This document shows, one piece after another, positions 8,775 to 27,533 of a DNA stretch of 35,945 nt; within the stretch, counting starts at the first letter, position 1, and every line of letters starts with the position of its first letter. Origin of the DNA: Rhodoferax sp. (GTDB taxonomy: Bacteria; Pseudomonadota; Gammaproteobacteria; Burkholderiales; Burkholderiaceae_C); assembly GCA_013791765.1 (NCBI GenBank), contig VMTC01000008.1, positions 1 to 35,945 on the forward strand, read 5' to 3'. Under the pieces are notes generated by a model, which did not search any database, was not told the origin of the DNA, and saw nothing but the letters and a program-made list of their open reading frames with translations. Both the position numbers and the translations under genes were made by a program.

Positions 8775-9463
8775 CGCTGGTATTGCTGGGCGCATTGGGC
8801 AAGAGCTTTCTTTTTGTTCTGGCGACGATTCTGCCGATTCTCAACCCGGCGGCCACCGCACCGATTTTTTTGGGTTTGACCGAGAACGCCTCAGCCAGCA
8901 CGCGCGCGCTGTTGGCGCGGCGCATTGCGCGCAATATGTTTGTGCTCATGGTCGGCTCCATGCTGGTGGGTTCCTACGTGTTGGAATTTTTTGGTATTTC
9001 GCTACCGATCGTGCGGGTTGGCGGCGGCTTGATCGTGGCTGCCGCCGCCTGGCGTCTGCTGAACGCCACGCAATCGACGGTTGATAGTCGAACCGAGCTG
9101 GCCGAGGCCTTCACGCCCGAACACGCGCACAAACAAGCGTTTTATCCGCTCACATTCCCGATCAGCTGCGGGCCGGGCTCGATTGCGGCGGCCATCACGG
9201 TGGGAGTGGCATTGAGCGACGAAAACCTCACGCTCTCGTTGGCGCGTATGGCGGGCGGCGTGCTGGCCCTGCTGGCCATTGGCATCATCTTGTACCTGGT
9301 TTTTCGCTACGCTCAGCGCCTGCTCGAGCCTTTGGGTGAAGCCGGTACGGTGATCTTTCTGCGTCTGTCAGCCTTCATTTTGCTATGCCTGGGCGTGCAA
9401 ATCGTCTGGGATGGCCTGAGCGAATTGCTCCGGGGACTGCTGGTGTCTGCGGCAGTGAGTTGA
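8771..9463 (+). CDS. MarC-family integral membrane protein
   Basis: A 230-residue protein with six hydrophobic helices typical of the MarC (UPF0056) family. The conserved N-terminal helix reads SFLFVLATILPILNPAATAPIFLGLT, and FYPLTFPISCGPGSIAAAITVG marks the second conserved half. The molecular function of this family is unsettled; it is not established as a drug-resistance gene. The start is TTG at 8771: an in-frame stop lies at 8756-8758 and no other start codon lies between, so there is no ATG alternative before the first helix. The stop is 13 bp before mgtE, and the two may be cotranscribed. Confidence 0.85.
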   Translation: MTLVLLGALGKSFLFVLATILPILNPAATAPIFLGLTENASASTRALLARRIARNMFVLMVGSMLVGSYVLEFFGISLPIVRVGGGLIVAAAAWRLLNATQSTVDSRTELAEAFTPEHAHKQAFYPLTFPISCGPGSIAAAITVGVALSDENLTLSLARMAGGVLALLAIGIILYLVFRYAQRLLEPLGEAGTVIFLRLSAFILLCLGVQIVWDGLSELLRGLLVSAAVS

Positions 9464-9476
9464 ATCGACAGCTGCC

Positions 9477-11710: not shown

Positions 11711-11955
11711 GCTTAAAATTCGTCTCAGTGGCCTTCAAGGCCATGTGCCTTCCGGCCCTGCAGTTCATTACCTCGGTGAGTTAGCTGCAGGTCTCGGCAA
11801 GTCGGGCGCAAGACTGGGTCATTGAACTTTTGACGCATTGGCCCCCCCCCCGCTTCGTTCGTATGCTGTGCGTTGAGCCGTTTTCAATGGCAGGCAGCGG
11901 CGTTCTCATTATTTTTTGGGGCATTGCCCCGCCTTCTCACAAAGCAAAACTGACG

Positions 11956-13431
11956 ATGAATTCTTTCCGACAAGACTGGCTTTCCAATATCAAAAGCGAC
12001 TTGCTGGCAGGGCTGGTGGTGGCGCTGGCGCTGATTCCCGAGGCCATCGCGTTTTCCATCATTGCTGGTGTGGATCCCAAGGTCGGGCTGTATGCCGCGT
12101 TTTGCATTGCTGCAGTGAGCGCCTTTGTGGGCGGTCGCCCCGGCATGATCTCCGCTGCCACGGGTGCGATGGCGCTCTTGATGGTGACGCTCGTCAAAGA
12201 CCACGGCCTGCAGTACCTACTGGCCACCACGGTTCTGACCGGGCTGCTGCAGATTGTTGCGGGCTGGATCAAATTGGGCGAGTTGATGCGCTTTGTGTCG
12301 CGCTCGGTCATCACCGGCTTTGTCAACGCACTGGCGATTTTGATTTTTCTGGCGCAGTTGCCCGAGCTCACCAACGTGGGCTGGGAGGTCTATGCCATGG
12401 TGGCCGCTGGCCTGGGCATCATCTATCTGCTGCCTTATGTCACCAAAGCGGTGCCCTCGCCGCTGGTCACCATCGTGGTGCTGACGGCGGTAACGATGTG
12501 GCTGGGCCTGGACATTCGCACCGTGGGCGACATGGGCCAGTTACCCGACAGCTTGCCATTTTTTCTGTGGCCTGAAGTGCCCTTGACGCTGGAAACCCTC
12601 AAAATCATCTTTCCGGTCGCGGCCACGCTGGCCACGGTCGGCTTGCTCGAGTCGATGATGACCGCCTCAATTGTCGATGAATTGACCGATTCCACCAGCA
12701 ACAAGAACCGCGAATGCGTCGGCCAGGGCATCGCCAATATCACCTCCGGCTTTCTGGGTGGCATGGCGGGCTGCGCGATGATTGGCCAGTCTGTCATCAA
12801 CATCAAGTCAGGCGGGCGCGGACGTCTTTCCACGCTGGCTGCAGGGGTGTTCTTGCTGCTGATGGTGGTGTTTATCGGCGACTGGGTGGCGCGCATTCCG
12901 ATGGCTGCGCTGGTGGCGGTGATGATCATGGTGGCCATTGGCACCTTCAGCTGGACCTCGCTGCGCAATCTGCGCGTGCACCCCAAAAGCACCAGCCTGG
13001 TGATGATCGCCACCGTGGTGGTGGTGGTGGCCACGCATGACCTGGCCAAAGGCGTGCTGGTGGGTGTGCTGCTGTCGGGCTTTTTCTTTGCGCACAAGGT
13101 CGGCATGATTTTGTACATTGGCTCGCAAACCGAAGACGAAGGTCGGCTGCGCTCGTACCGCGTGGTGGGCCAGGTGTTTTTTGCCTCCGCCGAGCGTTTT
13201 GTGAACTCCTTTGACTTCAAGGAAGTGATCGAGAAGGTGCGCATTGACGTCAGCCGCGCGCACTTTTGGGACATCACGGCGGTCAGCGCGCTCGACAAGG
13301 TGGTGGTCAAGTTCCGCCGCGAAGGCACTGAGGTCGAGGTGCTTGGCCTGAACGAAGCCAGTGCCACCATGGTCGACCGTTTTGCCGTGCACGACAAACC
13401 TGACGCCGTTGAACAACTGATGAGTCACTAA
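11956..13431 (+). CDS. SulP-family anion transporter with STAS domain
   Basis: A 491-residue SLC26/SulP transporter for sulfate, bicarbonate or another small anion at the inner membrane. The opening [35 protein letters not shown] is the family signature, followed by [17 protein letters not shown] and [32 protein letters not shown]. The last ~110 residues form a STAS domain ([19 protein letters not shown]...[12 protein letters not shown]). The ATG at 11956 begins directly before the cytoplasmic N-terminus; the frame is open from 11830, but that extension is not family-like. A Usp gene follows after 14 bp, a common SulP partnership. The substrate is undetermined; the sulfate operon lies 13 kb away and is not linked transcriptionally. 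Confidence 0.88.
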
Positions 13432-13445
13432 GGCAGAGCTACACC

Positions 13446-14309
13446 ATGATTATTGAGAACAAAGTGCTGGCCTGCGTGGACCAATCCCATTTTGCCGACT
13501 ACGTGGCCGATTACGCCGCCTGGGCCGCCAAACGCATGAACGCGCCGCTGGAGTTGCTGCACACGATTGAACGCCATCCCGAACTCGGCAGTAGCACCGA
13601 CCACAGCGGCGCCATTGGTATCGATTCACAAGAAACTTTGCTGACCGAACTGGCCGGCCAGGACGAGTCGCGCAGCAAAGCCGCGCGGGAGAAAGGCCGG
13701 CTGTTTTTGAACCGCCTGCGCGAGCGCGTCGTCGCTGCCGGCGTGGCCGCGCCCGATATTCGACAGCGCCACGGCAATCTGCAGGAAACGCTGGTGGCGC
13801 AAGAGTCCGTTGTGCGGTTGTTTGTGCTGGGGCGCCGGGGTGAGTCGGCCGAAATCACCCAGCGTGACCTGGGACGCAACGTCGAGAGCGTGGTGCGCGC
13901 ACTGCACAAACCGATCCTCACCGTGACCGAGGGCTTCAAGGTGCCCGAGCGCGTGATGATTGCCTTTGATGGCAGCATCATCACGCGCCGCGGGGTCGAG
14001 ATGGTGGCGGCCAGCCCGCTGTTCAAAGGCTTGCCGGTGCATTTGTTGATGTCTGGCAAGCCCAGCGCGGAGGCGGCCAAACAACTTGACTGGGCACAAG
14101 GCGTGTTGACGGCGGCCGGCTTTCAAACCACGCCGCATTTGGTCCCGGGTGACGCCGAGCGCGTGATTGCCACCACCGTGAGTGAACAGTCCATTGACCT
14201 GTTAATCATGGGCGCTTACGCCCACTCGTCTCTGCGCAGCTTGCTGTTTGGCAGCAGAACCTCCGAGTTGCTGCGCTCGTCCAAAATCCCGACGCTGCTG
14301 CTGCGCTGA
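13446..14309 (+). CDS. Tandem universal stress protein
   Basis: A 287-residue cytoplasmic protein with two Usp domains (about residues 4-155 and 158-287). The second keeps most of the nucleotide-binding motif (MGAYAHSSLRSLLFGSRTSELL), though the second Gly of the G-x2-G part is Ala. The first, KVLACVDQSHFADYVADYAAWAAKRMNAPLELLHTIE, ends with LGRRGESAEITQRDLGRNVESVVRALHKPILTV, a less complete motif. It probably works with the SulP transporter encoded 14 bp upstream, and the pair looks like one transcript. Direct function is not established for this pairing. Confidence 0.85.
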   Translation: MIIENKVLACVDQSHFADYVADYAAWAAKRMNAPLELLHTIERHPELGSSTDHSGAIGIDSQETLLTELAGQDESRSKAAREKGRLFLNRLRERVVAAGVAAPDIRQRHGNLQETLVAQESVVRLFVLGRRGESAEITQRDLGRNVESVVRALHKPILTVTEGFKVPERVMIAFDGSIITRRGVEMVAASPLFKGLPVHLLMSGKPSAEAAKQLDWAQGVLTAAGFQTTPHLVPGDAERVIATTVSEQSIDLLIMGAYAHSSLRSLLFGSRTSELLRSSKIPTLLLR

Positions 14310-14364
14310 ACAACGAGGAGCCCCCAACTCGGAATTTCCAGACGTGCCTAAGCTGGTATTTTGG

Positions 14365-14399
14365 AAAATGGTGGGCTGATGACGGCGATGCACCATTTT
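14365..14399. promoter_or_regulatory. Inverted repeat upstream of the ATP-grasp gene
   Basis: A perfect 9-bp inverted repeat, AAAATGGTG (14365-14373) and CACCATTTT (14391-14399), with a 17-nt spacer lies in the 136-bp gap between usp and the ATP-grasp gene. It is not followed by a T tract, so an operator is as likely as a terminator. Confidence 0.35.
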
Positions 14400-14403
14400 G
14401 GGT

Positions 14404-14419
14404 TGGCGCAAAGCTTGCT
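14404..14419 (+). promoter_or_regulatory. Possible sigma-54 (-24/-12) promoter
   Basis: TGGCGC, five bases, then TTGCT, with exact GG-N10-GC spacing, resembles the RpoN consensus. The predicted start near 14430 leaves only about 16 nt of leader, with the ribosome site TAGGAG (14430-14435) right at its 5' end, which weakens the case. Confidence 0.3.
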
Positions 14420-14445
14420 AAGCTAGAGGTAGGAGTGATCAGCTT

Positions 14446-15990
14446 ATGCAAAAATTCGACGAGATGTACACCGAGCTGCCCTACGAGTTCTTCACGAAGG
14501 GGGCGAAGATACGGGACCACTACAAGATTTATGACGAGTGGCTGGCGCGCCAGCCCGGCAACATGATGGCCAAGCGGCGCGAAGAGGCCGAAATGATTTT
14601 CCGGCGCGTGGGCATCACCTTTGCTGTCTATGGCGAAAAGGACGAAGAGGGCTTTGGTGCCGAACGCCTGATTCCGTTTGACCTGATTCCGCGCATCATC
14701 GCGGCGCAGGACTGGTCCTTTTTGGAGCGCGGCCTGGTGCAGCGGGTGACGGCACTCAACCGCTTTCTGCACGACGTTTACCATGGGCAGGAGATCATCA
14801 AGGCGGGCTTGCTGCCGCGCGAGCAGGTCCAGCAAAACGCCCAGTTTCGCCCTGAGATGATCGGTGTGGATGTGCCCAACCAAATTTACTCGCACATTTC
14901 GGGCGTCGACATCGTGCGGGCGACCAATGGGGCAGGCGAGGGCGAGTATTACGTGCTGGAAGACAACCTGAGGGTGCCCAGTGGCGTGAGTTATATGCTG
15001 GAAGACCGCAAGATGATGATGCGGCTGTTTCCGGCGCTTTTTAACGCGCACCGCGTGGCGCCGATTGCGCATTACCCCGACTTGCTGCTGGAAACCCTGC
15101 GTGAAAGCAGTCCCGCCACCACCGCCGAGCCCACCGTCGTGGTGCTGACCCCGGGCATGCACAACAGTGCCTATTTTGAGCATGCTTTTCTGGCGCAGCA
15201 AATGTGCATTGAACTGGTGGAAGTGCAAGACCTGTTCGTGAAAGACAGCTTTGTGTACATGCGCACCACGCGTGGCCCCAAACGCGTCGATGTGATCTAC
15301 CGCCGGGTGGATGACGACTTCCTGGACCCCAAGGCGTTCCGCGCTACCTCTACCCTCGGTTGTGCCGGTCTGATGGAGGCTTACCGCGCTGGCCACGTGA
15401 GCATCTGCAACGCGGTGGGCACCGGTGTGGCGGATGACAAGTCGATCTACCCCTATGTGCCCAAGATGATCGAGTTTTATCTGGCGGAAAAGCCGATCCT
15501 GAGCAACGTGCCGACCTACATGTGCCGCAACAAGGACGATCTGGCCTATACGCTGGCCCACCTGAAAGAGCTGGTGGTCAAAGAAGTGCATGGCGCCGGT
15601 GGCTATGGCATGCTGGTCGGGCCGGCCGCCACCAGCGCCGAGATTGAGACTTTTCGTAAAGCAGTGCTGGCCAACCCAAGTGGCTACATTGCGCAGCCGA
15701 CCCTGAGTTTGTCAAGCTGTCCGACCTTTGTCGAGAGTGGCATTGCGCCGCGCCACATTGACCTTCGGCCTTATGTACTCAGTGGCAGGACAGTGCAGAT
15801 GGTGCCGGGTGGCCTCACCCGTGTGGCCCTGAAAGAGGGCTCGCTGGTGGTCAATTCATCTCAAGGTGGAGGTACCAAAGATACCTGGGTGCTTGAGCCT
15901 GATGAGGCGCCAGAGCCCCCCACATTGCCAAGCGCGCCCGAGACTGCGGCGACGCCGTCGCAAACACAGTCACAAACCCAATCGTCCTGA
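14446..15990 (+). CDS. Circularly permuted ATP-grasp protein (DUF404/DUF407 type)
   Basis: A 514-residue circularly permuted ATP-grasp family protein, expected to ligate a carboxylate to an amine using ATP; the product is not known for this group. Recognisable blocks are YDEWLARQPGNMMAKRREEAEMIFRRVGITFAVYG near the N-terminus, FRPEMIGVDVPNQIYSHISGVDIVRA, YYVLEDNLRVPSGVSYMLEDR, DVIYRRVDDDFLDP, NAVGTGVADDKSIYPYVPKMI and KEVHGAGGYGMLVGP. A Pro/Thr/Gln-rich tail (about residues 486-514) looks disordered. TAGGAG precedes the ATG. It is 17 bp upstream of the alpha-E gene, the usual partner. Confidence 0.88.
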   Translation: MQKFDEMYTELPYEFFTKGAKIRDHYKIYDEWLARQPGNMMAKRREEAEMIFRRVGITFAVYGEKDEEGFGAERLIPFDLIPRIIAAQDWSFLERGLVQRVTALNRFLHDVYHGQEIIKAGLLPREQVQQNAQFRPEMIGVDVPNQIYSHISGVDIVRATNGAGEGEYYVLEDNLRVPSGVSYMLEDRKMMMRLFPALFNAHRVAPIAHYPDLLLETLRESSPATTAEPTVVVLTPGMHNSAYFEHAFLAQQMCIELVEVQDLFVKDSFVYMRTTRGPKRVDVIYRRVDDDFLDPKAFRATSTLGCAGLMEAYRAGHVSICNAVGTGVADDKSIYPYVPKMIEFYLAEKPILSNVPTYMCRNKDDLAYTLAHLKELVVKEVHGAGGYGMLVGPAATSAEIETFRKAVLANPSGYIAQPTLSLSSCPTFVESGIAPRHIDLRPYVLSGRTVQMVPGGLTRVALKEGSLVVNSSQGGGTKDTWVLEPDEAPEPPTLPSAPETAATPSQTQSQTQSS

Positions 15991-16007
15991 ACCCAAGGAG
16001 AACTAAT

Positions 16008-16967
16008 ATGCTGTCACGCACTGCCGATCACCTGTTCTGGATGTCGCGCTACACCGAACGAGCCGAAAACACGGCCCGCATGCTCGATGTGAATTACCAG
16101 ACTTCGCTCTTGCCTCAATCCAGTGCGGCAGCGCAGGTCGGGTGGAAGGGCTTGCTGAGCATCAGTGAATTGCTCCCGAGCTACGCCGAAGCCTATGACG
16201 AGATCAACGTGCGCAACGTGATGGACTTTATGGTCAAGGACGACAGCAATCCGTCCAGCATCGTCTCGTGCCTGAGTGCGGCGCGCGAAAATGCGCGGGC
16301 GGTGCGCGGCAGCCTCACCACCGAAGTCTGGGAGACGCAAAACCAGACCTGGCTTGAGGTCCAGCGCATGATCAACTCGGGCGAGTTTGAGCATGATCCG
16401 GCACAGTTTTTCGAATGGGTCAAGTTTCGCTCGCATCTGTCGCGCGGCGTGACCGTGGGCACGATGCTGATGGACGAGGCGCTGCACTTCATGCGCTTGG
16501 GTACCTTTTTGGAGCGCGCCGACAACACGGCGCGGCTGGTGGACGTGAAGTTTCATGCGCTGCAAAGTGAGTTTTTTGGCGCCGCCAACGGCAAAGTCAT
16601 GGAGTACGACTTCTACCACTGGAGCGCGATTTTGCGCAGCGTGTCGGGCTTTGAGGTCTATCGCAAGGTGTACCGGGACATCATCAAGCCCGAACGCGTG
16701 GCCGAACTGCTGATTCTGCGAGCCGACATGCCGCGTTCGCTGCACGCCAGTCTGAACGAAGTGGTCAGCAATCTGGAGTTGGTGGGCGCTGAACAATCCG
16801 GTGAGACCCAGCGCCGCGCCGGCAAGTTGCGCGCTGATCTGAAGTATGGGCGCATCGATGAAATTTTGGCCACGGGCCTGCATGCGTTCCTGACCCAATT
16901 TCTGGACCGCATCAATGACCTGGGGGCCAACATCAGCCGCGACTTTCTGGTTCCAGCGCCGGGCTGA
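16008..16967 (+). CDS. Alpha-E domain protein (DUF403)
   Basis: A 319-residue all-helical alpha-E protein, the regular companion of the circularly permuted ATP-grasp enzyme. The N-terminus MLSRTADHLFWMSRYTERAENTARMLDV and the second copy-like motif HFMRLGTFLERADNTARLVDVKFH are typical. Function is unknown; the pair is proposed to make or handle a peptide-like compound. AAGGAG lies just before the ATG. In many genomes a transglutaminase-like protease gene follows; here none is seen before the sensor kinase gene at 17130. Confidence 0.88.
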   Translation: MLSRTADHLFWMSRYTERAENTARMLDVNYQTSLLPQSSAAAQVGWKGLLSISELLPSYAEAYDEINVRNVMDFMVKDDSNPSSIVSCLSAARENARAVRGSLTTEVWETQNQTWLEVQRMINSGEFEHDPAQFFEWVKFRSHLSRGVTVGTMLMDEALHFMRLGTFLERADNTARLVDVKFHALQSEFFGAANGKVMEYDFYHWSAILRSVSGFEVYRKVYRDIIKPERVAELLILRADMPRSLHASLNEVVSNLELVGAEQSGETQRRAGKLRADLKYGRIDEILATGLHAFLTQFLDRINDLGANISRDFLVPAPG

Positions 16968-17129
16968 GCTTCGCATGCTGACGGTCTTGACGACCGTGTG
17001 GCCGACTCAACAATTCTGCTCCCTGTCGCCTCTCTGACAGGGTAAACCTTGAGGTTTTTGCCTGAAGCAGTGCTCTATACTTTTGCCAGGGGTTATATAA
17101 AAGCAATAGTTCTTCTCTGAGCGAACACC

Positions 17130-19955
17130 ATGTTGACAAAAATCGTACGCTGGCTGGCATGTTTGTCGGTCTTGTTGGGATTCGCAGCGAGCGCGGTAGC
17201 CGAAGGCCCGCCAGCCGGTGCAACGCCGCCAGGCTGCACGTCCTGTCGGATCCAGATCGACAATCTGGACAAGCCCTTCAAATTGAGTGGCAAGTGGCTT
17301 TTTAGCCGCGACGATTTGCCACAAAACAAGAACGTTGATCTTGACACCTCCGGCTGGCGCCTGGTCAAGGCGCCTGGGCCCTGGAAAGGTGTCTATGACG
17401 ACAAGAAGGTGTTCCCGGTCGGCTGGTACCGGGGTAATCTTGAATTCGCCCCGGCGCTGGTCGGTCAGGAAGCAGTTTTGCTGCTCAATGCCTACATGAG
17501 TCGGGTCAGCGTCTATGTTGATGGTGAAGAGGTATATCGTCGGCCGAACAACATCAACGTTGAGCGGTATTATTCGATTCAGGCTATTCCTGTGCGCTTC
17601 AAGATCAAAGAGCATCAGGTGATCGCCATACGCGTTGATACCCCCTTGATGTCGGGTCTTTATCAGTTGCCATTTGAATTACACAAGTACGACAAGCACG
17701 ACACCGGCCTGGTGATCTATCAGATATTGGGCGGTGAGTCGCGCATGATTGCCGCTTACGTCATTGCATTTTTTGGTCTTTTCTTCTTATTGATTTATGC
17801 CAAGACCCGTTACGGCCTTTATCTGGTGTGCGCAGCATCGAGTCTTGTCATTTTTCCGTTCTTTGCAGCACCCGGCGATTATTTTTTGAGCATCTTTGAA
17901 CCGGAGACAATGCTCTATCTGCACTACATTGGGATAGCTGCCTGCTTTCTGTTCTATATCTTTGCCCAGTACTTTCATAAATTCACGCCAAAAATAAACT
18001 GGATTGGCGGCATTTTGCTGGGCAGCATCGGGTTGACCATTGGCTCTATGGCCTTTTACCCCAATGTTGCATTGTTCCAGCACATCCGCAGCGTCTATTT
18101 CATTGGCAATCTGTTGGCCGGCTTTGGCGCCTGCTATATGCTGATCAGAGGAATAATGAACAAGAAGCCAGGAGCGGGCATCTTGCTGTTTGGTATCAGC
18201 GTTTTTGTGGCGATGGGCTTCAATGACCTTTTGCTTGCTCTGGGTGTCATTCAGTCCTACTCGATGATATTTTTTGGCGTGTTGATCGCCACCGGCACCA
18301 TGCTCTATGTCGCCTCCAACACCTTTGCCAACACCTTCGTCGAGAACAAGAAACTGGTCGGGGACCTGAAAGTCATGAACGACAGCCTGGAAGACCTGGT
18401 GACAGAGCGCACGGCGCAATTGCGTCAAAAGACCAATGACATTGAGTCGATGCTTGAAAACATGCCACAAGGTGTGCTGACCGTGACCGCTGGCAACATC
18501 ATTCATCCAGAGTATTCAGCCTACCTCGAAACCATTTTCGAGACCAAGGAAATTGCCGGCAAGAGCTTGATGGATATTGTGTTCAGCAACACCAATCTGG
18601 GCGCTGACATGCTGTCGCAGGTTGAAGCCGCGATTGGGTCTTGTATTGGTGAAGATCAGATGAACTTCGAATTCAATTCGCATTTGCTGGTCACTGAACT
18701 GGACAAGACCATGGCCGATGGCCGGGTCAAGTCATTGGAGCTCAGCTGGTCACCGATCTGCAATGACGTGGTCGAAAAGCTCATGCTTTGCGTGCGCGAT
18801 GTCACCGAGTTCAAACGGTTGGCCGGCGAAGCCACAGCGCAAAAGCGTGAGCTTGAAATCATTGGTGAAATCTTGGCCGTAAGCCAGGAAAAATTCCAGG
18901 AATTTATTGAGAGTTCGTACAAGTTTGTTGAGGAAAATGACACCATCAACCGCGATACCCATCAAAAAGATATTGAAGCGATAGGCCTGCTGTTCCGCAA
19001 TATGCATACCTTGAAGGGCAATGCGCGCACCTATGGTTTGCTGCATATGACCAACGTCGTGCACGAAACCGAGCAGGTCTATGACGAGTTGCGCAAGAAC
19101 CCAGAAAAAGAATGGGATACTGATTCTCAAAAAGAGCAACTCGCGCAAGTGCGCGCCCTGGTGGACGAGTACGCCAAGGTCAATAGTACGACGCTGGGAC
19201 GCAAGGGCCCAGGGCGCCGTGGCAGCGTCGAGCGCTTCCTGATGGTCGACAAAGAGCAGGTCACTGAGTCGCTGCATCTGATTGAGACCACCAACGCCGA
19301 GAGCGTGGCAGCGCTGCGTGCCACGCTGGCTCATGTGGGTAAGACTTTGAGCCTGATCGGCACCGAGAGAATTGACGAGATACTGGCTGGCGTCATTGAA
19401 TCCATGCCCTCGCTGGCCCGGGAGTTGGGCAAAGAGCCACCCCGGATCAGCATTGAGGACCATGGGGTTGTGGTGCGCAATCAAATCAGCGGTCTACTGA
19501 AGAACCTGTTCGTACATTTGTTCCGCAACTCAATGGATCACGGCTTGGAAACACCCGCTGCGCGCTTGGCCGCAGGCAAGCCACTTGTTGGGCAGATCCA
19601 GCTGGATCTGGCGCTTGAAGATGGGCAGTTCATGCTCAGAATGCGGGACGACGGGCAAGGCTTGAACATGGCCAGAATTCGTCAGACCGCCATTGAGAAA
19701 GACCTGCTTACCGATGCCAATGCCTCGCCCGAGTCAGTAGCTCAGTTGATCTTCACGCCGGGCTTTTCAACGGCTGACAAGGTGACCGAGGTTTCAGGCC
19801 GGGGCGTTGGTATGGACGCAGTCAAAGGTTTCCTGGAGCGTGAAGGTGGCAGCGTGAAGATTCGGTTCCTGGACGACAATGCCGCCCAAGACTACCGGCC
19901 GTTTGAAGTCGTCATCAACCTGCCTGTGAAGTTTGCCGTCCAGTCATCTATTTGA
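17130..19955 (+). CDS. 7TM sensor kinase with Hpt and CheA-type ATPase domains
   Basis: A 941-residue membrane kinase. Order: signal peptide (1-25); periplasmic galactose-binding-like sensor (about 40-195, with WYRGNLEF and [14 protein letters not shown]) as in 7TMR-DISM receptors; seven membrane helices (about 205-400); coiled coil (about 405-440); PAS-like region (about 445-565); and an Hpt domain with phospho-acceptor His626 in MHTLKGNA. The ATPase domain is CheA-like: N box RNSMDHG (Asn800), DDGQG (840-844), GFSTADK and GRGVGMD (890-896). There is no HisKA domain and no CheW-like P5 domain after the ATPase. It likely autophosphorylates at His626 and passes phosphate to the CheY-like protein at the end of the operon. 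The stop overlaps the next gene's TTG start. Ligand unknown. Confidence 0.85.
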
Positions 19956-20683
19956 ATTCTTTTGTGACCACTTCAATCGTCTATTTTCTGTTGGGTTGCC
20001 TGCTTGGCGCAGGTGTCATGGTGTGGCGTCTTAGGCAACTTAAAAGGGCCATGGCGGACATGGTGCCGATCGAGCAGGTGCAGACTGCAGAGCAAAATTT
20101 GCAGCTCGTCATTCGGGAGTTGGAGCATAAGCTTGAGCAGCACCAGCAGTTGTTGACGCAAGAAGCCAATACAGGCCAGGCTCAATTGCAGCAACTGCAA
20201 CAGGAGCAGGCGAAAGTTCTGCGCCAGTTGGATTCAGAGAATTCGAATGCAAAAGACAAGACGCTGGAAAACTGCAATGCCTTGGGGCAAGCGATCGACA
20301 AGCTGCTTGGCTTGGCCAAGACCTTTGAACGCTGGCATGCGGATATGAGCGCCCTGATCACCCACAACCGGGAAATGCACAGCAAAAACGACGAGTTTTC
20401 CTCGATCGTGCGCCAGGTTGTGATCGTGACGCTGAATGCGTCGATTGAGGCCGCACGCGCGGGTGAGCAGGGCCGTGGATTTGCCGTGGTTGCCAATGAA
20501 ATGCGTGAGTTGGCCGCACGCGCCGAGGCACTGTCTAAAGACTACCGAAGCAACCTTTATGAAAACGATTTGATCACCACAACGACATTTCAGGATTTGC
20601 AGGCCGGCGGCAAGATGATCATCGGCTCGGTCATTGGGCTTGATCTGATCAACAAAAAAACCAAAGAAGTGCTCTCCAATTAA
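19952..20683 (+). CDS. Miniature membrane-anchored MCP-like protein
   Basis: A 243-residue protein with one N-terminal membrane helix (about residues 5-27, [20 protein letters not shown]), a Gln/Glu-rich coiled coil (about 40-105), and a chemoreceptor signalling tip. The tip, [30 protein letters not shown], starts at Asn162 and closely matches the kinase-binding hairpin of MCPs. Only about 50 residues follow the tip, so the long returning helix, methylation sites and ligand domain of true MCPs are missing. The start is TTG at 19952, overlapping the kinase TGA; GTG at 19964 is an alternative. It probably scaffolds or regulates the kinase encoded upstream. Confidence 0.8.
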
Positions 20684-20695
20684 ACGGCACCCACC

Positions 20696-21250
20696 ATGAT
20701 CAGCAATAACGCCCGGGATGGTTTCGACTACATGTTTATGCAGGGCCTTAAAGGTGGGTTGCTTGCATCGCCCGAGGACAATTTCGAGATCAGCGTATTG
20801 CCTGATCTTTCAGAGGTCAAAGAAAGCAAGCTGGTCATTCTGACGGTCTCGTCGTACCTGTTTCGGTTGATGGTTTTGATTTATTTCACGCCAGACCAGG
20901 CCACCAGAGAGCACTTTGCCAGAGTCAACAAGTCGTCGGTTGAAGGCATGAGTGAACGGGATTTTGACGACGCGATTTCTGAATGTGGCAATATTTCTTG
21001 TGGCATTCTGAATCGAGAGTTGGCGCATTTTTTTCCAAATATTGGCATGTCGACTCCCAATATTCTCGACAAGGATTGCTCATCCTATCTGGCAATACTC
21101 AATACCGGCCATGTTCAACACCTCCGGGTCGACATTAACGAGACAGTTCATTTTCACGCCAGCCTGTGCGTCTGTGCCTATGCAGACCTGGATTTCAAGG
21201 TTGAAATCAGCGAAGAAGAGGCCAATACCGGCGAGCTGGAATTATTCTGA
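20696..21250 (+). CDS. CheX-like protein ending in GELELF
   Basis: A 184-residue protein with a CheC/CheX/FliY-type fold. The signature is DDAISECGNISCGILNRELAHFF (about residues 91-113), with the Glu96-x2-Asn99 pair that in CheX attacks the CheY phosphoryl bond, followed by NIGMSTPNIL. It therefore likely dephosphorylates the CheY-like partner. The C-terminus is GELELF after an acidic linker (SEEEANT), a hexapeptide shared with the next protein. It starts 12 bp after the MCP-like gene, with no clear ribosome site, so coupling is likely. A catalytically inactive CheX-like adaptor is the alternative. Confidence 0.75.
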   Translation: MISNNARDGFDYMFMQGLKGGLLASPEDNFEISVLPDLSEVKESKLVILTVSSYLFRLMVLIYFTPDQATREHFARVNKSSVEGMSERDFDDAISECGNISCGILNRELAHFFPNIGMSTPNILDKDCSSYLAILNTGHVQHLRVDINETVHFHASLCVCAYADLDFKVEISEEEANTGELELF

Positions 21251-21280
21251 TAACAGGGCGTCAAACCCAAGGAAGCAAGA

Positions 21281-22258
21281 ATGACCGATGAAACAAAGAT
21301 TGTCAGTAAAGTACTGGTTCTGGACAGTAACGCCGAGTGCTATGACAGTATCAAGGCATTTTGCGATAGCCATAATTTGATTGGACTCAAAGTCCAGCAT
21401 GACAACATCATGTCTGTTCTCAAGTCCAACGTGGATTTGGGCGCAATTCTTTTGGCTGAAGAATATGGCGACAACGCCCACGGTGGCATCCAGCTGGCCC
21501 GGGATATTCATGAGGTTCGTCCTGATTTACCAATTTTCTTGCGTCGGGAAAAATCAGATCATCTGGACGATTTTTCCGAAAAGGACCGTAAATTATTCAG
21601 TGCAGCCTATACGATCGACTGCATTGCCAATCTGCATCAGGCCATTGACGAGTTTATTTTCAGTTTGGTCTACCCGAGTGCACTGGTGCGCGGTATCACA
21701 GATCTGACCAAGACGGCGCTGGAAAGCCAGTTTCGAGGAATGGGAGTCGAGATTGCTGCTCCCTATATTGTTCGCGATCGAATTATTTTTGGTGAGATAT
21801 TCACGCTGATTCCGATTGAAGGCAGTTGGTGTCGCGGCTACATGATGCTGCAGGCCGAAGAAGAGTCGCTGTTACGACTGGTCAAGGCGGATAAGACTTA
21901 TATTGATGCCGATAGTGCCGATGACTTTCGCAACCTGAACAATGTGCTGGGTGAAATTACCAATCTTATTTGGGGTGCCTTCAAGAACAAGTACATCAAT
22001 TATTCTGAAAATAATGCCAATCTGGCTCAGGTGCCGCTGGTGATCAATCACCTGCATCGCTACATCTCATTTGGTTCGGAGAATCCCCAGTTGTGTTTCA
22101 AATACACTTTGTTGGACGGAGATCACAACGATGAGAAATCGATGGTTATCTATCAAAGGTTTGTTTTTAACCTGAGCTGGTCTCCGGAGGATTTCAAAGA
22201 AAACCAATTTTCAACCGTGGATGAGTTGTTTGATTCTGGTGAGCTTGAATTGTTTTGA
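21281..22258 (+). CDS. Degenerate receiver fused to CheX-like domain, ending in GELELF
   Basis: A 325-residue protein. Residues about 8-128 look like a receiver fold (KVLVLDSNAECYDSIK, then DLGAILLAEEYGD), but Ala59/Glu60 occupy the phospho-acceptor position and no Lys-Pro pair is visible where receivers keep one, so it is probably not phosphorylated. Residues about 135-300 form a CheX-like domain with NVLGEITNLIWGAFKNKY, giving Glu225-x2-Asn228. The tail reads TVDELFDSGELELF; it resembles the CheZ C-terminus that binds CheY and ends with the same hexapeptide as the upstream protein. AAGGAA precedes the ATG. Likely an adaptor or phosphatase for the CheY-like protein. Confidence 0.72.
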   Translation: MTDETKIVSKVLVLDSNAECYDSIKAFCDSHNLIGLKVQHDNIMSVLKSNVDLGAILLAEEYGDNAHGGIQLARDIHEVRPDLPIFLRREKSDHLDDFSEKDRKLFSAAYTIDCIANLHQAIDEFIFSLVYPSALVRGITDLTKTALESQFRGMGVEIAAPYIVRDRIIFGEIFTLIPIEGSWCRGYMMLQAEEESLLRLVKADKTYIDADSADDFRNLNNVLGEITNLIWGAFKNKYINYSENNANLAQVPLVINHLHRYISFGSENPQLCFKYTLLDGDHNDEKSMVIYQRFVFNLSWSPEDFKENQFSTVDELFDSGELELF

Positions 22259-22278
22259 TTTTTATATAGGATTTAATC

Positions 22279-22647
22279 ATGGCGCAAATTTTAGTGGTTG
22301 ATGACTCGAGCACCGTCCGTAACGAAGTAGGTGATTTTCTGAAAAAGAATGGCTTGAATGTGGCTTTGGCGGTTGACGGGCGTGACGGTCTGGCCAAGCT
22401 CAAGGCTGACCCGAGCATCAAGCTCGTTGTTTGCGACGTCAATATGCCCAACATGGATGGCTTGACCATGGCGGAAAAAGTCCGCGGTGAGCTGGGCAAC
22501 AGCACGGTGAGCATCATCATGTTGACCACCGAGAATTCACCCATCATGAAAGAGCGAGGCAAAGCGGCCGGCATCAAGGGCTGGATCGTCAAACCGTTCA
22601 AGGGTGACGCGGTTCTGGCGACCTTCAAGAAGCTCGCCGGCGCTTGA
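22279..22647 (+). CDS. CheY-like single-domain response regulator
   Basis: A 122-residue stand-alone receiver. All active-site residues are present: Asp8-Asp9 (VVDDS), the phospho-acceptor Asp53 (VCDVNMPNMDG), Thr83/84 (MLTTE) and Lys105 (VKPF). With no output domain it must act by protein binding, for example on a motor or pilus component, or on the CheX-like proteins. AGGA precedes the ATG at a normal distance and the gene starts 20 bp after the previous stop. It is the last gene of the chemosensory-like operon and the expected target of His626 of the sensor kinase. Confidence 0.9.
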   Translation: MAQILVVDDSSTVRNEVGDFLKKNGLNVALAVDGRDGLAKLKADPSIKLVVCDVNMPNMDGLTMAEKVRGELGNSTVSIIMLTTENSPIMKERGKAAGIKGWIVKPFKGDAVLATFKKLAGA

Positions 22648-22667
22648 GTCAAGGCGGCCGCTTTGTC

Positions 22668-23882
22668 TTAGAAAATGCTGCGCGGCGTCCCCGGGTCCGC
22701 CAGCTCTTGATCTTCGATCTGGCGCAGCAGGGCCTGTGCGTATGAACTGAGTGCGGAGTCGGGGGAGTCGAGTACTTCGGTGGCAAGTTCACGCGCCCCG
22801 AACGTCAAACCCAGAGCCTCGAATTCTTGTGCCAATGACAGTTGCACCGCATGGTCTAGCTCGTCGTCAGTGTCCAGTTTGGGCGTAGCTGTTGTTGCTG
22901 TGGGCAGCACAGCCTGCAAATCAGCAACTGGCTGGTCCTGGATATCGAAATCCAGTAAAACTGCGGCTGCAGGGGGCAGTGTCGGTAGAACGCTTTCATG
23001 TCGGGGTGCGGGGTTCTGCTGGTCTGGCGAACGCGCTGCGTCTTGATTCTCGCCGCCCCGGTTGCCTTGGGCGGGTCGGCCAGTCGGTGTGTGAAGCGGC
23101 AGTAATTCGACTGGCCTGTGATCTTGCTCGTTTGACGTTGTTAAATCTGTTTTTTGCGGCCGCCTAGACCTGGCCGCACGCTTGCTGGCCAGCGACTTGA
23201 GTACACGTTCAACTTCATCAGCAGCCGCTTCCGGGTCAAACTCCGGTACATGTTGGATCTTGGCAACCGGCTTTTCGTTAGCGCTGACGACAGCTTGCAT
23301 CAAAGGCGCTTTGATCGGCAACAAATCTTCCAGATTCACATCCAAGTCTGAAACTGCGGCGCCCGAAGCTGAAGCGGGTGGCTCAGTAGACGCCGTTGGC
23401 AACTCTGGTGCCGTCTCCGGCAGGGCGGCTGCACGCACCCGCGCTGACTGAAGGACTTCTAATGTTTCTGAATCCAGCGGTAGGTCTGGAGGGCTGTAAC
23501 TGTCAACGAACTCTTGTTGTCGCCCCATTGGTCTTGCCCGCAAACGGTGCGATCCAGACCACGTCAGCAAGCCGCCCAGTATCAGTATCCCGATACCCAA
23601 CAAGGCTGTTCCGGGTGTCAGACTGGCTGGCATACCAAAAATAGCGCTGGTAAAAGGCTGGCCCTGCTGTTCTAGTTGCAGTTGTTCAATACCTGACTGG
23701 GTAATGAGAGCCTGTTGGCGCATGGCTTTGAGCTCCAGGGCCATTTGATCGGGATGCGGTATCAATTCAATCGTGTTCCCTGTTTGCAGGGCAGAAAGTT
23801 GTAAGGAAAGATCGGGGCCTAGAGAAGTCTCTGGCGCTACAGACGCGGCAGTGCGCGGGTTGGCCGGGGTCGGGTCTGTCAT
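22668..23882 (-). CDS. FimV-like single-pass membrane protein
   Basis: A 404-residue protein with a short N-terminal region, one membrane helix (about residues 85-108, LTPGTALLGIGILILGGLLTW), a long low-complexity Pro/Ala/Thr-rich linker, and a C-terminal segment LSLAQEFEALGLTFGARELATEVLDSPDSALSSYAQALL. That last part resembles the FimV C-terminal domain (tetratricopeptide-like), known from polar hubs for type IV pili; no LysM domain is visible. The start is ATG at 23882, one codon after a GTG at 23885. It converges with the CheY-like gene, 20 bp apart. The FimV link is a short match, so the name is tentative. Confidence 0.6.
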   Translation of the reverse strand: MTDPTPANPRTAASVAPETSLGPDLSLQLSALQTGNTIELIPHPDQMALELKAMRQQALITQSGIEQLQLEQQGQPFTSAIFGMPASLTPGTALLGIGILILGGLLTWSGSHRLRARPMGRQQEFVDSYSPPDLPLDSETLEVLQSARVRAAALPETAPELPTASTEPPASASGAAVSDLDVNLEDLLPIKAPLMQAVVSANEKPVAKIQHVPEFDPEAAADEVERVLKSLASKRAARSRRPQKTDLTTSNEQDHRPVELLPLHTPTGRPAQGNRGGENQDAARSPDQQNPAPRHESVLPTLPPAAAVLLDFDIQDQPVADLQAVLPTATTATPKLDTDDELDHAVQLSLAQEFEALGLTFGARELATEVLDSPDSALSSYAQALLRQIEDQELADPGTPRSIF

Positions 23883-23918
23883 CACTCTTCTCTGAATTTC
23901 TTCTTGTCGGGCTGCAGC

Positions 23919-24164
23919 CTAACGACGGTTCTTCCTGGTGGACGTTCCCATGTTTTCCCTGTTTCTGTCAATGCGTTCCTGCTTGCGCTTGTTTTCCCGG
24001 TCCATCGCCTTTTTCTTGGTGTAGCCAGAATGGTCAGCCCAGGTCCACCAGAGCACAGCCAGGCCAAATGGCGCCATAACAACCCACCAGCTCCAGTTCG
24101 CCACCGGGCCAAATGCCAGAGATTTCATGATCATTAAGAATAATCCAAGTCCTAGTAAATACAT
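23919..24164 (-). CDS. Small Trp-rich protein (TIGR04438-like)
   Basis: An 81-residue protein: two hydrophobic segments (MYLLGLGLFLMIMKSL and NWSWWVVMAPFGLAVLWWTWAD) followed by a highly basic tail (YTKKKAMDRENKRKQERIDRNR). It matches the small Trp-rich family widespread in Burkholderiales, in which GPVANWSWW is conserved. Function is unknown; a small inner-membrane protein is expected. The ATG at 24164 starts the family-like sequence; an upstream frame from 24224 adds unconserved residues. It is 36 bp upstream of the FimV-like gene on the same strand. Confidence 0.85.
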   Translation of the reverse strand: MYLLGLGLFLMIMKSLAFGPVANWSWWVVMAPFGLAVLWWTWADHSGYTKKKAMDRENKRKQERIDRNRENMGTSTRKNRR

Positions 24165-24267
24165 CTCGCAAAGCCCAGTTACATTTTGATGGGCGCGCCA
24201 AGGTCGCCTGTCAACACCAATCAATACAATCGCACCAGTTCACTATAAACCAAGCGATGAGGTCTTA

Positions 24268-24576
24268 ATGGCTAAAACTTTAATTATCGCTGCGCTTGCC
24301 GCAGCCTTTCTCACTGTTCCCGTACTGGCTGATCCAGCGCTTGCCAAGGCCAAGAATTGTTTGGCCTGCCATACCGTCGAGAAAAAATTGGTGGGACCGG
24401 CGTACCAGGATGTGGCAAAGAAGTATGCCGGTCAAAAAGATGCTTCGGCCAAGCTAGCAACAAAAATCATGAAGGGCGGCTCTGGCGTCTGGGGGGCGGT
24501 GCCGATGCCGGCCAATACCCAAGTGAATGAAGCAGAAGCCAGGAAACTGGCAGATTGGGTTTTGAGCTTCAAATAA
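24268..24576 (+). CDS. Class I c-type cytochrome (c551-like)
   Basis: A 102-residue periplasmic electron carrier. It has a signal peptide (residues 1-21, cleaved after VLA), the heme attachment motif CLACH at 31-35, and Met80 in VPMPAN as the likely sixth heme ligand. The size and spacing match the small cytochrome c551/c5-type family, which passes electrons to terminal oxidases or reductases. It stands alone on its strand, convergent with the ferredoxin reductase gene, so its partner cannot be read from context. Confidence 0.9.
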   Translation: MAKTLIIAALAAAFLTVPVLADPALAKAKNCLACHTVEKKLVGPAYQDVAKKYAGQKDASAKLATKIMKGGSGVWGAVPMPANTQVNEAEARKLADWVLSFK

Positions 24577-24589
24577 GCGCGTATTTGAC

Positions 24590-25654
24590 TCAGTCAAACA
24601 CCGGCGACTCAACGCCCAACACCTTGTGCAACTTCGGACTGGTGGTGGTGTACTGCAAAAAAACTTTTTTCTCAGGCGAAATGATCGTTATGGCGCCAAA
24701 GGCGGCCAGTGCGCATTCATGAAAGCCACTCAAGATCAGCTTCTTCTTGCCGGGATAGGTGTTGATGTCGCCGACGGCAAAAATGCCAGGCTCACTGGTG
24801 GAAAATTTCTCGGTATCCACCTTGAGCTGTTTGCGCTCGATGTCCAGGCCCCAGTCGGCAATCGGGCCCAACTTGGGCGACAGGCCGAAAAAGACCAGTA
24901 ACACGTCCAGCGGTACGACCCGGGTGATGCCGTCAGAACCGTTGACTTTGATGCCGGTCAGCAGGCTGTCCTGGGCTTCAAAGCCGGTGACCTGACCGAC
25001 GATGAACTGCATCTCCAGCGCGTCGCACAGTTCGCGCATTTTCGCCACATTGGACGGCGCGGCCTTGAAGCCGTCCCGGCGATGGATCAGGATCACGCTG
25101 GCGGCTTTGTGGGGGCCGGCTTTGACAAAGTCCAGCGCCCAGTCGAGGGCAGAATCGCCGCCGCCAACGATGACCAGATTCTTGCCCGCAAAATCGGCCG
25201 GGTTGCGCACGCGGTAAAACAATTGCGAGTCTTCGAACACGTCCAGGCCGTCAACCTTGAGGGTGCGCGGCTGGAATGCGCCCACGCCTGCGGCAATGAA
25301 AATGGTTTTGCTCAGGAAGCTCGTACCCTTGGAGGTGGCGACAAAAAAACGTCCGTCGTCCTGTTTTTCTACCGTCGTGACTTCCTGTCCGTAGTGAAAG
25401 GTGGCACCAAACGGGGCAATCTGTTTCAGCAGGTTTTCCGTCAACTCCCGGCCGGTACAGACGGGAACGGCAGGGATGTCGTAAATGGGCTTGTCAGGAT
25501 AGAGCTCAACGCACTGACCGCCGGGGTGCTCCAGCGAATCCACGACATGGGCCTTGATTTCAAGCAGGCCGAGTTCGAACACCTGAAACAATCCGACCGG
25601 GCCGGCACCGATGACTAGCGCGTCGGTCTCTATGGGGTTTTGATGGTTGCGCAC
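24590..25654 (-). CDS. Ferredoxin-NADP+ reductase, thioredoxin reductase-like type
   Basis: A 354-residue FAD flavoprotein moving electrons between NADPH and ferredoxin. FAD-binding [26 protein letters not shown] near the N-terminus, [18 protein letters not shown], the NADPH-binding motif [16 protein letters not shown] and the C-terminal [29 protein letters not shown] are all visible. The CxxC of thioredoxin reductase is missing, as expected for this FNR class. The start is GTG at 25654 because an in-frame stop lies a few codons upstream. It lies 45 bp downstream of the fdxA-like gene, so the pair probably forms a redox couple. Confidence 0.88.
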
Positions 25655-25699
25655 AGGCGAGTCAATAGTCCATGTGTTGAAAGAGCAAAAAGCAAAAAA

Positions 25700-26029
25700 T
25701 CAGCGCTCTAGAAATGGCAGCTTGCCGGCCTTGTCTTTCCATTCTTCGGCCTCAGGCAGGGCGGGCTTGCGCTTGGTGATGGTCTTCCAGCCCGGCAGCT
25801 TGGCCAGATCGGCATTGATCTTGGTCATGTGCTGCTGGTCTTTGGGCACATCTTCTTCAGCATAGATGGCATTGACCGGGCATTCGGGAATGCACACGGC
25901 GCAGTCAATGCACTCATCGGGGTCGATGGTCAAAAAATTGGGACCTTCGCGAAAGCAATCCACGGGACAGACATCGACGCAATCGGTGTATTTGCATTTG
26001 ATACAGGCTTCAGTGACGGTATGTGTCAT
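25700..26029 (-). CDS. fdxA: FdxA-type 7Fe ferredoxin
   Basis: A 109-residue ferredoxin of the [3Fe-4S][4Fe-4S] type. The first motif is [18 protein letters not shown] and the second [12 protein letters not shown]; the latter supplies three Cys of the 4Fe cluster and the last Cys of the other. The C-terminal ~50 residues ([20 protein letters not shown]) are the usual FdxA extension. It is upstream of the ferredoxin reductase gene on the same strand and about 100 bp downstream of cysN, so readthrough from the sulfate operon is possible. Confidence 0.93.
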
Positions 26030-26132
26030 GTTGTGTTTTTCGACAAGGTAGGTGAAAAGGGTCGATTTTATTGGGTTTCAAATTCTGTCCCGCCCAAATA
26101 GCCTTGGACGTCGCCGGATTTCTTGAACCAGG

Positions 26133-27533
26133 TCAATTAATCAGCACTGCGCCCGAGGTTTTGTGCGAGGCCGTGTCCACCAACACCATGGAGCCAAGCA
26201 CCCGGGACTGGTTGAATGGCCGCGCTGCAATCGGCTCTTGCAGCACCAACTCGACATGGCCAATGGCATTGGCCGCCAGCACGCTGGCGTTTTCTTCGGC
26301 CAGGGTGTTGATGTCAAGTTTGTGCACGATGCGCTTGACGCGGGCCTTGACCCAGCGGTGCCCGTGCAGCGCCCAATAGACCCGGCCTGCGACCAGTGGC
26401 TCGTCGTCCATCCAGGCGATCGTCACTTTCAGCTCGCGGCTGGGCGCCAGGCTGGTGGTTGCGGGCGTCGTATCGAAATCATCCTCTGCAACCGCACTGT
26501 CGGCATTCGCAGCTTCAACCCCCAGCAGCCAGTCGCCGCGCGACACATCAACCTCCCGGTCCAGCACAATGCCGGCGCTGTGGCCGCCAGCGACTGTGCC
26601 GGGCTGGCGGGTCGTGCCCAGCACCTGCGCGATGTTGGCGCTTTGACCGCTGGGCAGCAGCTTGACCGCCTGCCCGACGCGGGCAAAGCCGGTGGCAACC
26701 CGGCCCCAAAAGACGCGCCGGCCTTGCGAGGTGTCACGGCTAGCAGAGAACTTTTCGACCCATTGCACCGGAAATGCCAGCGGCAACTCGGTATCGGCCG
26801 GGGTCACGGGCAAGAGTTCCAGAATGTCGAGCAAACTGGGCCCGTTGTAGCCGCACCAGCCCTCGGCCGCTTCCACCACGTTGTGTCCCTTGAGCGCCGA
26901 AATCGGCACGATCGCCGCGACCTCGATACCGGCGGCTTGGGCAAACGCGCGCAGGGCATGGCTGATGTTGGCAAAAGCCAGCGCCGCCTGGCCTGCGGTT
27001 TTTGGTTTGGCTGCGTCTTCCAGCGCGTCGAGCTTGTTGACGGCAAACACGATGCTGTTGACGCGCAGCAAGTGGCACAAGAGCGTATGGCGCCGGGTTT
27101 GTGGCAGCAGGCTCAAAACGGGGTTGACCCAGTCAAGTTTGGTGGCATCCACCAGCACCACGGCAGCATCGGCGCTGCTGGCGGCGGTGACCATGTTGCG
27201 GGTGTATTGCTCGTGGCCGGGGGCGTCGCCAATGATGAATTTGCGATCGGCGGTGTTGAAGTAGCGGTAGGCCACGTCGATGGTGATGCCCTGCTCACGC
27301 TCGGCGGACAAGCCGTCGGTGAATTGCGCCAGGTCCGCCTCGCCGCTCTTGGATACATTGGCCAGCTGGTCAAGCAGCACGCTTTTGCTGTCCAGCAACA
27401 AGCGGCCAATCAAGGTGCTTTTGCCGTCGTCGACACTGCCGCAGGTGATGAATTTCAGCGCAGATTGTGTATCTAATTGGGCTATAGCCCTCGTGTCTGT
27501 TGCGTTAGTAGCTATTGAAATAGTAGTGTTCAT
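26133..27533 (-). CDS. cysN: Sulfate adenylyltransferase, GTPase subunit
   Basis: The 466-residue GTPase subunit of ATP sulfurylase, coupling GTP hydrolysis to APS formation with CysD. G1 GSVDDGKSTL, G2 region AEREQGITIDVAYRYF, G3 GDAPGHEQY and G4 NKLD are present, followed by EF-Tu-like beta barrels. There is no fused CysC kinase domain, which fits direct reduction of APS. The first ~20 residues (NTTISIATNATDTRAIAQL) are encoded by a dispersed repeat and have no family similarity; no other ATG or GTG lies before the conserved ALKFITCGS. It is separated from cysD by 258 bp holding a palindromic element, unlike the usual tight cysDN pair. Confidence 0.93.
   Translation of the reverse strand: MNTTISIATNATDTRAIAQLDTQSALKFITCGSVDDGKSTLIGRLLLDSKSVLLDQLANVSKSGEADLAQFTDGLSAEREQGITIDVAYRYFNTADRKFIIGDAPGHEQYTRNMVTAASSADAAVVLVDATKLDWVNPVLSLLPQTRRHTLLCHLLRVNSIVFAVNKLDALEDAAKPKTAGQAALAFANISHALRAFAQAAGIEVAAIVPISALKGHNVVEAAEGWCGYNGPSLLDILELLPVTPADTELPLAFPVQWVEKFSASRDTSQGRRVFWGRVATGFARVGQAVKLLPSGQSANIAQVLGTTRQPGTVAGGHSAGIVLDREVDVSRGDWLLGVEAANADSAVAEDDFDTTPATTSLAPSRELKVTIAWMDDEPLVAGRVYWALHGHRWVKARVKRIVHKLDINTLAEENASVLAANAIGHVELVLQEPIAARPFNQSRVLGSMVLVDTASHKTSGAVLIN
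27479..27531 (+). repeat. Dispersed short repeat, copy 3, within the cysN 5' coding end
   Basis: The plus strand reads GGGCTATAGCCCTCGTG, then GTTAGTAGCTATTGAAAT. This matches the blocks of the copy at 7112, except TATTGAAA for TATCAA. It ends at the cysN start codon (complement of 27531-27533) and encodes most of the first 18 residues. Confidence 0.65.

Follow-up and report, generated by a model that had tools for sequence, protein, structure and literature searches.

The DNA analysed here, a window of 35,945 nucleotides from Rhodoferax sp. (assembly GCA_013791765.1, contig VMTC01000008.1, positions 1 to 35,945 of the forward strand), carries at 17130-22647 an operon of five open reading frames (ORFs), genes 1 to 5, that is a distinct, recurring five-gene signalling module in which chemotaxis parts are re-cut, and that probably represents a previously undescribed mode of flagellar control. 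All five genes lie on the plus strand in the same direction, with a 4-base overlap between genes 1 and 2 and then gaps of 12, 30 and 20 bases, in agreement with a preliminary description of this DNA (overlaps or gaps of at most 30 bases). Gene 1 (17130..19955, 941 residues) encodes a sensor kinase with a variable membrane sensor, a PAS-like region, an Hpt domain, P3-like helices and a CheA-type ATPase but no P5. Gene 2 (19952..20683, 243 residues) encodes a sensor-less receptor-tip protein, predicted to be anchored in the membrane, consisting of an N-terminal hydrophobic segment, a presumed coiled coil and a hairpin. Gene 3 (20696..21250, 184 residues) encodes a CheX-fold protein with the motif E96xxN99, gene 4 (21281..22258, 325 residues) a putative pseudo-receiver joined to a CheX domain with the motif E225xxN228, and gene 5 (22279..22647, 122 residues) a CheY-type single-domain receiver with D8, D9, D53, T83 and K105. 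The same kinds of protein (an Hpt and CheA-type ATPase kinase, a tip like that of methyl-accepting chemotaxis proteins, two CheX-like proteins and a CheY) had been named before, and Pfam and, for gene 3, AlphaFold2 and Foldseek bore this out. No description of the operon was found in the literature searched, namely open-licence PubMed Central (PMC) papers.

A search of 300 Burkholderiales genomes found gene 4 in 11, the genome of origin included, and all five families lay side by side in the other ten. In addition, scanning 84,980 species genomes with gene 4 yielded 306 relatives, and the best 80 of these plus the 11 loci from the 300-genome sample gave a set of 91 loci. All five families occurred together in 81/91 loci (80/90 without a duplicate contig, L020 and L080 being the same one; G195 and G331 gave identical matches, which leaves one duplicate in the genome counts). 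Two further pairs, L047/L048 and L038/L053, come from one isolate each. The preliminary description had asked for the same gene order in relatives, and the order 1-2-3-4-5 was indeed present in 61 of the 81 complete loci, followed by 1-4-5-2-3 in 8, 2-3-4-5-1 in 5 and others in the rest; the kinase is on the other strand in two of the 81, and the order 2-1-3-4-5 at L025 is spurious and stems from a long overlapping ORF, the true order being 1-2-3-4-5. Among the hosts are Herbaspirillum, Paraburkholderia, Aquabacterium, Rhodoferax, Propionivibrio, Formivibrio and Methylobacter. Of 398 genomes from the phylum, five carry gene 4: the genome of origin, another three from the same order and one from the same class. 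Gene 4 was also found in six records of large Burkholderia and Caballeronia replicons filed as plasmids, and the two of these that were checked (Caballeronia and Burkholderia stagnalis) held the whole operon in the order 1-2-3-4-5, although their records carry no annotated features. No other family occurred in more than 9/91 loci; there is thus no conserved sixth gene that would name the output. Nor was there any protein that matched two of the module families and so would have revealed partners.

Ten loci fell short of five families, four of them near a contig end (L048, L055, L073 and L113). Genes 2 and 3 were absent nearby in L102 and L107. At L102, genes that by eye resemble phage head or portal genes follow gene 5 (about 11900-15030), where genes 2 and 3 are expected, and a prophage insertion into the operon is possible. 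L021, one of the ten complete loci from the 300-genome sample, has a short kinase ORF that begins close to a contig end, and its gene 4 is interrupted by an internal stop. L029 was excluded from the family alignments.

Pfam assigned to gene 1 an Hpt domain (residues 607-679) and a HATPase_c domain (residues 791-911), both above cut-off. The Hpt domain (P1) lies at 18948..19166 (+), with the predicted phospho-acceptor His626 at 19005-19007, and the CheA-type HATPase_c domain (P4) at 19500..19862 (+), the protein ending 30 residues further on. Between them is a P3-like two-helix stretch (19251..19355, +; residues about 708-742). The kinase-family profile aligned with P1 (9-108) and P3-P4 (281-496) of Escherichia coli CheA and stopped there; neither CheA P2 nor HisKA was matched in the gene 1 kinase, and Pfam gave no match to a CheW-like P5 domain. 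The AlphaFold2 model (predicted local distance difference test score 86, predicted template modelling score 0.46) contained a PAS-like domain, the Hpt domain, two short helices and the ATPase, and its first 24 Foldseek matches were CheA structures, P3-P4 foremost. P3 is covered by the profile alignment, and two short helices are modelled in this part, with no match to Pfam H-kinase_dim; the dimerization domain is often missed by HMMER, according to the sections of Berry et al. (PMC10542144) drawn on here. Only 48-99 residues follow the G2 box in 82/82 measured kinases (two of the 84 were not measured), whereas the own genome's two kinases with a CheW domain have 177 and 291, and therefore the module kinases have no room for P5. 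The Hpt histidine (His626) and the tested N and G box residues were invariant in 84/84 kinases, and the catalytic core of gene 1 should work like that of CheA. In the same sections of Berry et al. (PMC10542144), the CheA core is defined by Hpt, dimerization, kinase and CheW domains, CheA is stated to lack a sensor domain, and a CheW domain is reported in 100% of 13,673 CheA proteins; by this definition the gene 1 kinase is therefore not a CheA.

The preliminary description had called gene 1 a 7TM (seven-transmembrane) sensor kinase. A sensor is fused to the kinase, as it held; the 7TM part did not carry over to the family. The variable membrane sensor covers residues 1 to about 404, and since a hydropathy scan showed an N-terminal segment plus six more, the label rests on a sub-threshold Pfam match to 7TMR-DISM_7TM (25.5 vs 29 bits). 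Among relatives, hydropathy indicated two hydrophobic segments before the kinase core in 69/84 kinases and six or seven in 6/84. Pfam sensor families in ten relatives were HAMP in six, 4HB_MCP in four (two above cut-off), GAF in one and 7TMR-DISM in one, with none in three. The predicted sensor is thus exchangeable between relatives, and the putative 7TM-type sensor is a trait of the copy in the window rather than of the kinase family. With HAMP and 4HB_MCP sensors in relatives and two segments in most kinases, a sensor type usual for receptors often rides on the module kinase. Behind the sensor, a PAS-like conserved region (18402..18800, +; residues about 425-557) was recognised from the AlphaFold2 model and conservation; Pfam matches to PAS in relatives were sub-threshold only.

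In gene 2, the Pfam match to MCPsignal was confined to residues 149-199 (profile positions 42-92 of 172). MCPsignal was present in 33/33 family members, and it alone recurred among them, no sensor domain or HAMP being found. The family profile also matched solved receptor structures. The protein may start at GTG 19964 rather than TTG 19952, because its relatives begin about there. The matched part includes the receptor hairpin tip (20423..20515, +; residues 158-188, 377-407 in Tsr numbering), which is common to ordinary receptors. We compared 31 ordinary receptors from eight module genomes with the 84 placeable of 85 gene 2 proteins, and gene 2 agreed with the receptors at 27/31 positions of Tsr 377-407 (residue overlap above 0.4). 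Residues kept in the tip include N381 (84/84), E385 (84/84), R388 (83/84), F396 (84/84) and V398 (80/84). Five receptor trimer-contact positions mutated in the part of PMC8466855 used here were mapped to Tsr F373, N381, E385, R388 and V398, of which the last four are kept in gene 2 and F373 is lost; F396, another kept residue, is named in the part of PMC8144572 used. On both sides of the hairpin, gene 2 diverges from receptors and has near-invariant residues of its own. Furthermore, genes 2 and 3 overlap or sit within 54 bases of each other in 83/83 pairs.

Gene 3 matched CheX/CheC in Pfam below cut-off, and its profile matched solved CheX/CheC structures weakly (E 0.16-0.74); therefore, fold comparison was used. 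The AlphaFold2 model (predicted local distance difference test score 92, with a low-confidence tail at residues 174-182) and Foldseek confirmed a CheX fold: the first 20 titles were CheX, CheC, CheC-like, FliY or putative chemotaxis proteins, followed by FliM. CheX was listed for 25/34 gene 3 members (E up to 0.1) and for 11/11 gene 4 members, the CheX match of gene 4 itself being above cut-off. The ExxN motif, which is catalytic in CheX phosphatases, is conserved in both families, with Glu and Asn in 85/85 gene 3 proteins and Glu in 90/91 and Asn in 91/91 gene 4 proteins. Before its CheX domain, gene 4 has a part (21305..21655, +; residues about 9-125) that we tentatively label a pseudo-receiver, tentatively because its receiver profile matches are weak (E 0.24-0.33). 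Its Glu60 aligns with the phospho-acceptor Asp54 of NtrC, and Glu stands at this position in 82/91 gene 4 proteins.

Both CheX-family proteins end in GELELF (21230..21247, +, in gene 3 and 22238..22255, +, in gene 4). The pattern G-x-[LMI]-[DE]-[LFMI]-[FLY], which was defined after the sequences were seen, describes the C-terminus of 85/85 gene 3 and 90/91 gene 4 proteins. When eight module genomes were searched for a DNA pattern encoding ELELF followed by a stop, 13 of the 14 matches were ends of module-family CheX proteins, one of them belonging to a solitary gene 4; the 14th reads TGG and has no stop, and a reversed control pattern gave 4 matches. The G-x-LELF-type tail common to the two CheX proteins is a new feature, as is the likeness of gene 2 to ordinary receptors around the hairpin alone.

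Gene 5 matched Pfam Response_reg, and D8, D9, D53 and T83 were kept in 88/88 proteins, so that the receiver active site is intact. It is the most conserved part of the module, with a median pairwise identity of 0.79 compared to 0.36-0.51 for the other four families. Of the receivers in five che stretches of the own genome, the closest (46%) was the CheY encoded next to cheA on the contig that carries fliM.

We then considered how the module relates to ordinary che genes. In the window, CheW, CheR, CheD, CheA and receptor sequences of the own genome, run by BLASTP against 136 ORFs of at least 80 residues (CheB was not a query, here or in the other loci), matched only gene 1, via the CheA query, and gene 2, via the receptor query. 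Pfam found no Che families among ten neighbouring proteins (11830-27533), in keeping with the earlier statement that CheW and CheR are not visible at this locus. Across the 91 loci, CheW was linked in 1 and CheA in 2, neither CheR nor CheD in any, and 9 loci contained an ordinary receptor; an always-linked cheW/cheR set, which would have spoken against the preliminary description, is thus not seen. 'Not linked' here refers to the span of each locus (at least 18 kb in 66/91, the shortest 4.4 kb). Exceptional linkage to an ordinary che set is seen at L084 and L107, where a CheA that ends in the usual way lies close by; L084 (Methylobacter psychrophilus), the one CheW-linked locus, also has a nearby CheW.

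The preliminary description had further proposed that receptor arrays are dispensed with, and here our results disagree. CheW was found elsewhere in 59/59 module genomes searched (50 of the 80 loci, chosen by eye for variety, plus 10 sample genomes, with L042 left out), so module genomes are not CheW-free. The own genome, an assembly of 4.17 Mb in 136 contigs, has six CheW-domain matches on other contigs, 17 MCPsignal matches and a cheY-cheA-cheW-cheR-cheD cluster on the same contig as fliM. Gene 2, with most hairpin residues and four of five trimer-contact positions retained, likewise argues against a loss of arrays. Elsewhere in this genome (L031:9804-13819), cheW and two receptors have as neighbours a MASE3-PAS-kinase-receiver hybrid and an HD-domain response regulator.

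FliM was present in 57/60 module genomes compared to 199/300 Burkholderiales genomes; FliG was found in two of the three module genomes without FliM, and the remaining one, the metagenome-assembled genome G333, showed neither. In the unselected sample of 300, each of the 11 genomes that carry gene 4 also has FliM (P about 0.01, kinship ignored), and each has CheW, which occurs in 232/300 (P 0.056, kinship ignored).

We cautiously favour, with modest confidence, the reading that this is a chemosensory module whose sensor is built into the kinase and which is coupled to the ordinary array by the tip and linked to flagella. The gene 1 sensor would set the autophosphorylation of His626, the phosphate would pass to Asp53 of gene 5, and phosphorylated gene 5 would act in trans, the flagellar motor being its most likely target, with genes 3 and 4 removing the phosphate from gene 5. 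The common G-x-LELF-type tail would dock genes 3 and 4 on one partner within the module, and gene 2 would position the module at the ordinary receptor-CheW-CheA array or link it to that array. This coupling is proposed because most hairpin residues, trimer contacts included, are kept and because the module's own kinase lacks P5; the conserved pairing of a P5-less sensor kinase with a bare receptor tip suggests contact with the ordinary array through the tip, not through the kinase. As a tentative extension, possible rather than probable, the module may form an unrecognised chemosensory class in which the sensor sits on a P5-less kinase, a separate tip plugs that kinase into the array, two-component sensor and array act on flagella jointly and the tail holds both phosphatases.

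Several observations weigh against this reading. Flagella and CheW usually co-occur, CheW in 11/11 genomes is a weak indication, and the larger co-occurrence set was hand-picked and is clumped by genus. Of the 199 flagellated sample genomes, 188 lack gene 4, and the module is therefore accessory. Gene 4 is solitary in four loci (L029, L065, L090 and L103, around 9300-10980). The genome of L029 has a full module elsewhere (L024), and gene 2 was found elsewhere in the genome in full for L103 and in part, outside the L102 stretch, for L102; it is absent elsewhere in the genomes of L065 and L090, and the metagenome-assembled genome of L107, with neither gene 2 nor gene 3 in the locus, has no gene 2 elsewhere. 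The tip itself lacks F373 and most of the QTN stretch, differs at 4/31 hairpin positions and has flanks that resemble no ordinary receptor, so that it might not enter arrays.

The loss of F373 and most of QTN, the near-invariant flanking residues and the rarity of che linkage speak for a fully insulated pathway, in which the kinase-CheY-CheX chemistry is the same and gene 2 assemblies scaffold module proteins only, never touching CheW or CheA. However, the agreement of the hairpin with ordinary receptors, trimer-contact positions included, and the presence of CheW in every module genome searched speak for contact with the array, and we regard insulation as rather doubtful. The pathway might instead act on something other than the motor, for example adhesion or second-messenger control, with the link to flagella reflecting lifestyle: gene 5 is a receiver on its own, no target gene recurs beside it, and G333 shows neither FliM nor FliG. 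The excess of FliM in module genomes and the closeness of gene 5 to the CheY from the che cluster that shares a contig with fliM speak against a non-motor output, which is unlikely. That the module is what remains of an ordinary chemosensory operon in decay, from which cheW, cheR and P5 were lost, was rejected as highly improbable, since, although standard parts are missing, G+C is below that of the neighbours and L021 has an internal stop in gene 4, the catalytic residues are invariant across 84-91 homologues, all measured kinases share the P5-less end and the five families stay together in 81/91 loci. With linkage to che genes rare as well, the module is, as the preliminary description had supposed, a distinct system and not a fragment of a known one.

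Beyond the operon, the ten neighbouring proteins comprise a sulfate permease, a Usp protein, an ATP-grasp/Alpha-E pair, a cytochrome c, a pyridine-nucleotide oxidoreductase, a ferredoxin, a GTPase and two without a Pfam match. The G+C content of the operon is 0.507, compared to 0.597 for the flanks (10 kb each side). The lower G+C noted earlier thus holds in the window; among relatives the module is on average only 0.021 below its flanks (n=63; lower in 51/63), and the drop is mostly local to this copy. With relatives 0.021 and the window operon 0.09 below their flanks, a recent arrival of the operon in this Rhodoferax genome is possible. The ATP-grasp/Alpha-E pair (14446-16967) precedes the module in the window; at L036 the module adjoins the same pair (86 and 82% identical) but on the pair's other side. 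The L036 contig is filed as Akkermansia muciniphila, has genes close to those of the window and is probably a mislabelled metagenome bin. Promoter-like sites (2 vs 5.1 in shuffled sequences) and terminator-like sites (7 vs 6.3) were uninformative.

An operon that sets a sensor-bearing, P5-less kinase beside a bare tip offers a natural experiment on the roles of the tip, CheW and P5, and the common tail of two phosphatase-like proteins is a directly testable candidate docking motif. In Herbaspirillum, Paraburkholderia, Aquabacterium and methanotrophs, the pathway may also provide a further level of motility control.

Compared with CheA, gene 1 has P1 and P4 domains that are homologous by profile and fold, and the profile alignment also covers P3; it differs in lacking a P5/CheW domain and a P2 match and in carrying a membrane sensor and a PAS-like domain of its own. 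Fusion of sensor and kinase is also found in sensor histidine kinases with 7TMR-DISM or 4HB-HAMP sensors, whereas gene 1 has an Hpt phospho-acceptor before a CheA-type ATPase and no HisKA match, and its partners are CheX, CheY and a receptor tip. With methyl-accepting chemotaxis proteins, gene 2 shares the hairpin tip, but it has no sensor or HAMP match, only a partial signalling domain and its own conserved flanks. The CheX phosphatases of known structure (Thermotoga maritima, Borrelia burgdorferi and Vibrio vulnificus) share their fold with gene 3 and the aligned ExxN motif with genes 3 and 4; in contrast, the module has two such proteins, one fused to the putative pseudo-receiver and both with the common C-terminal tail. 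Finally, unlike canonical chemosensory systems of the F, ACF and Tfp classes, the module stands almost always without linked CheW and, in all 91 loci, without linked CheR or CheD.

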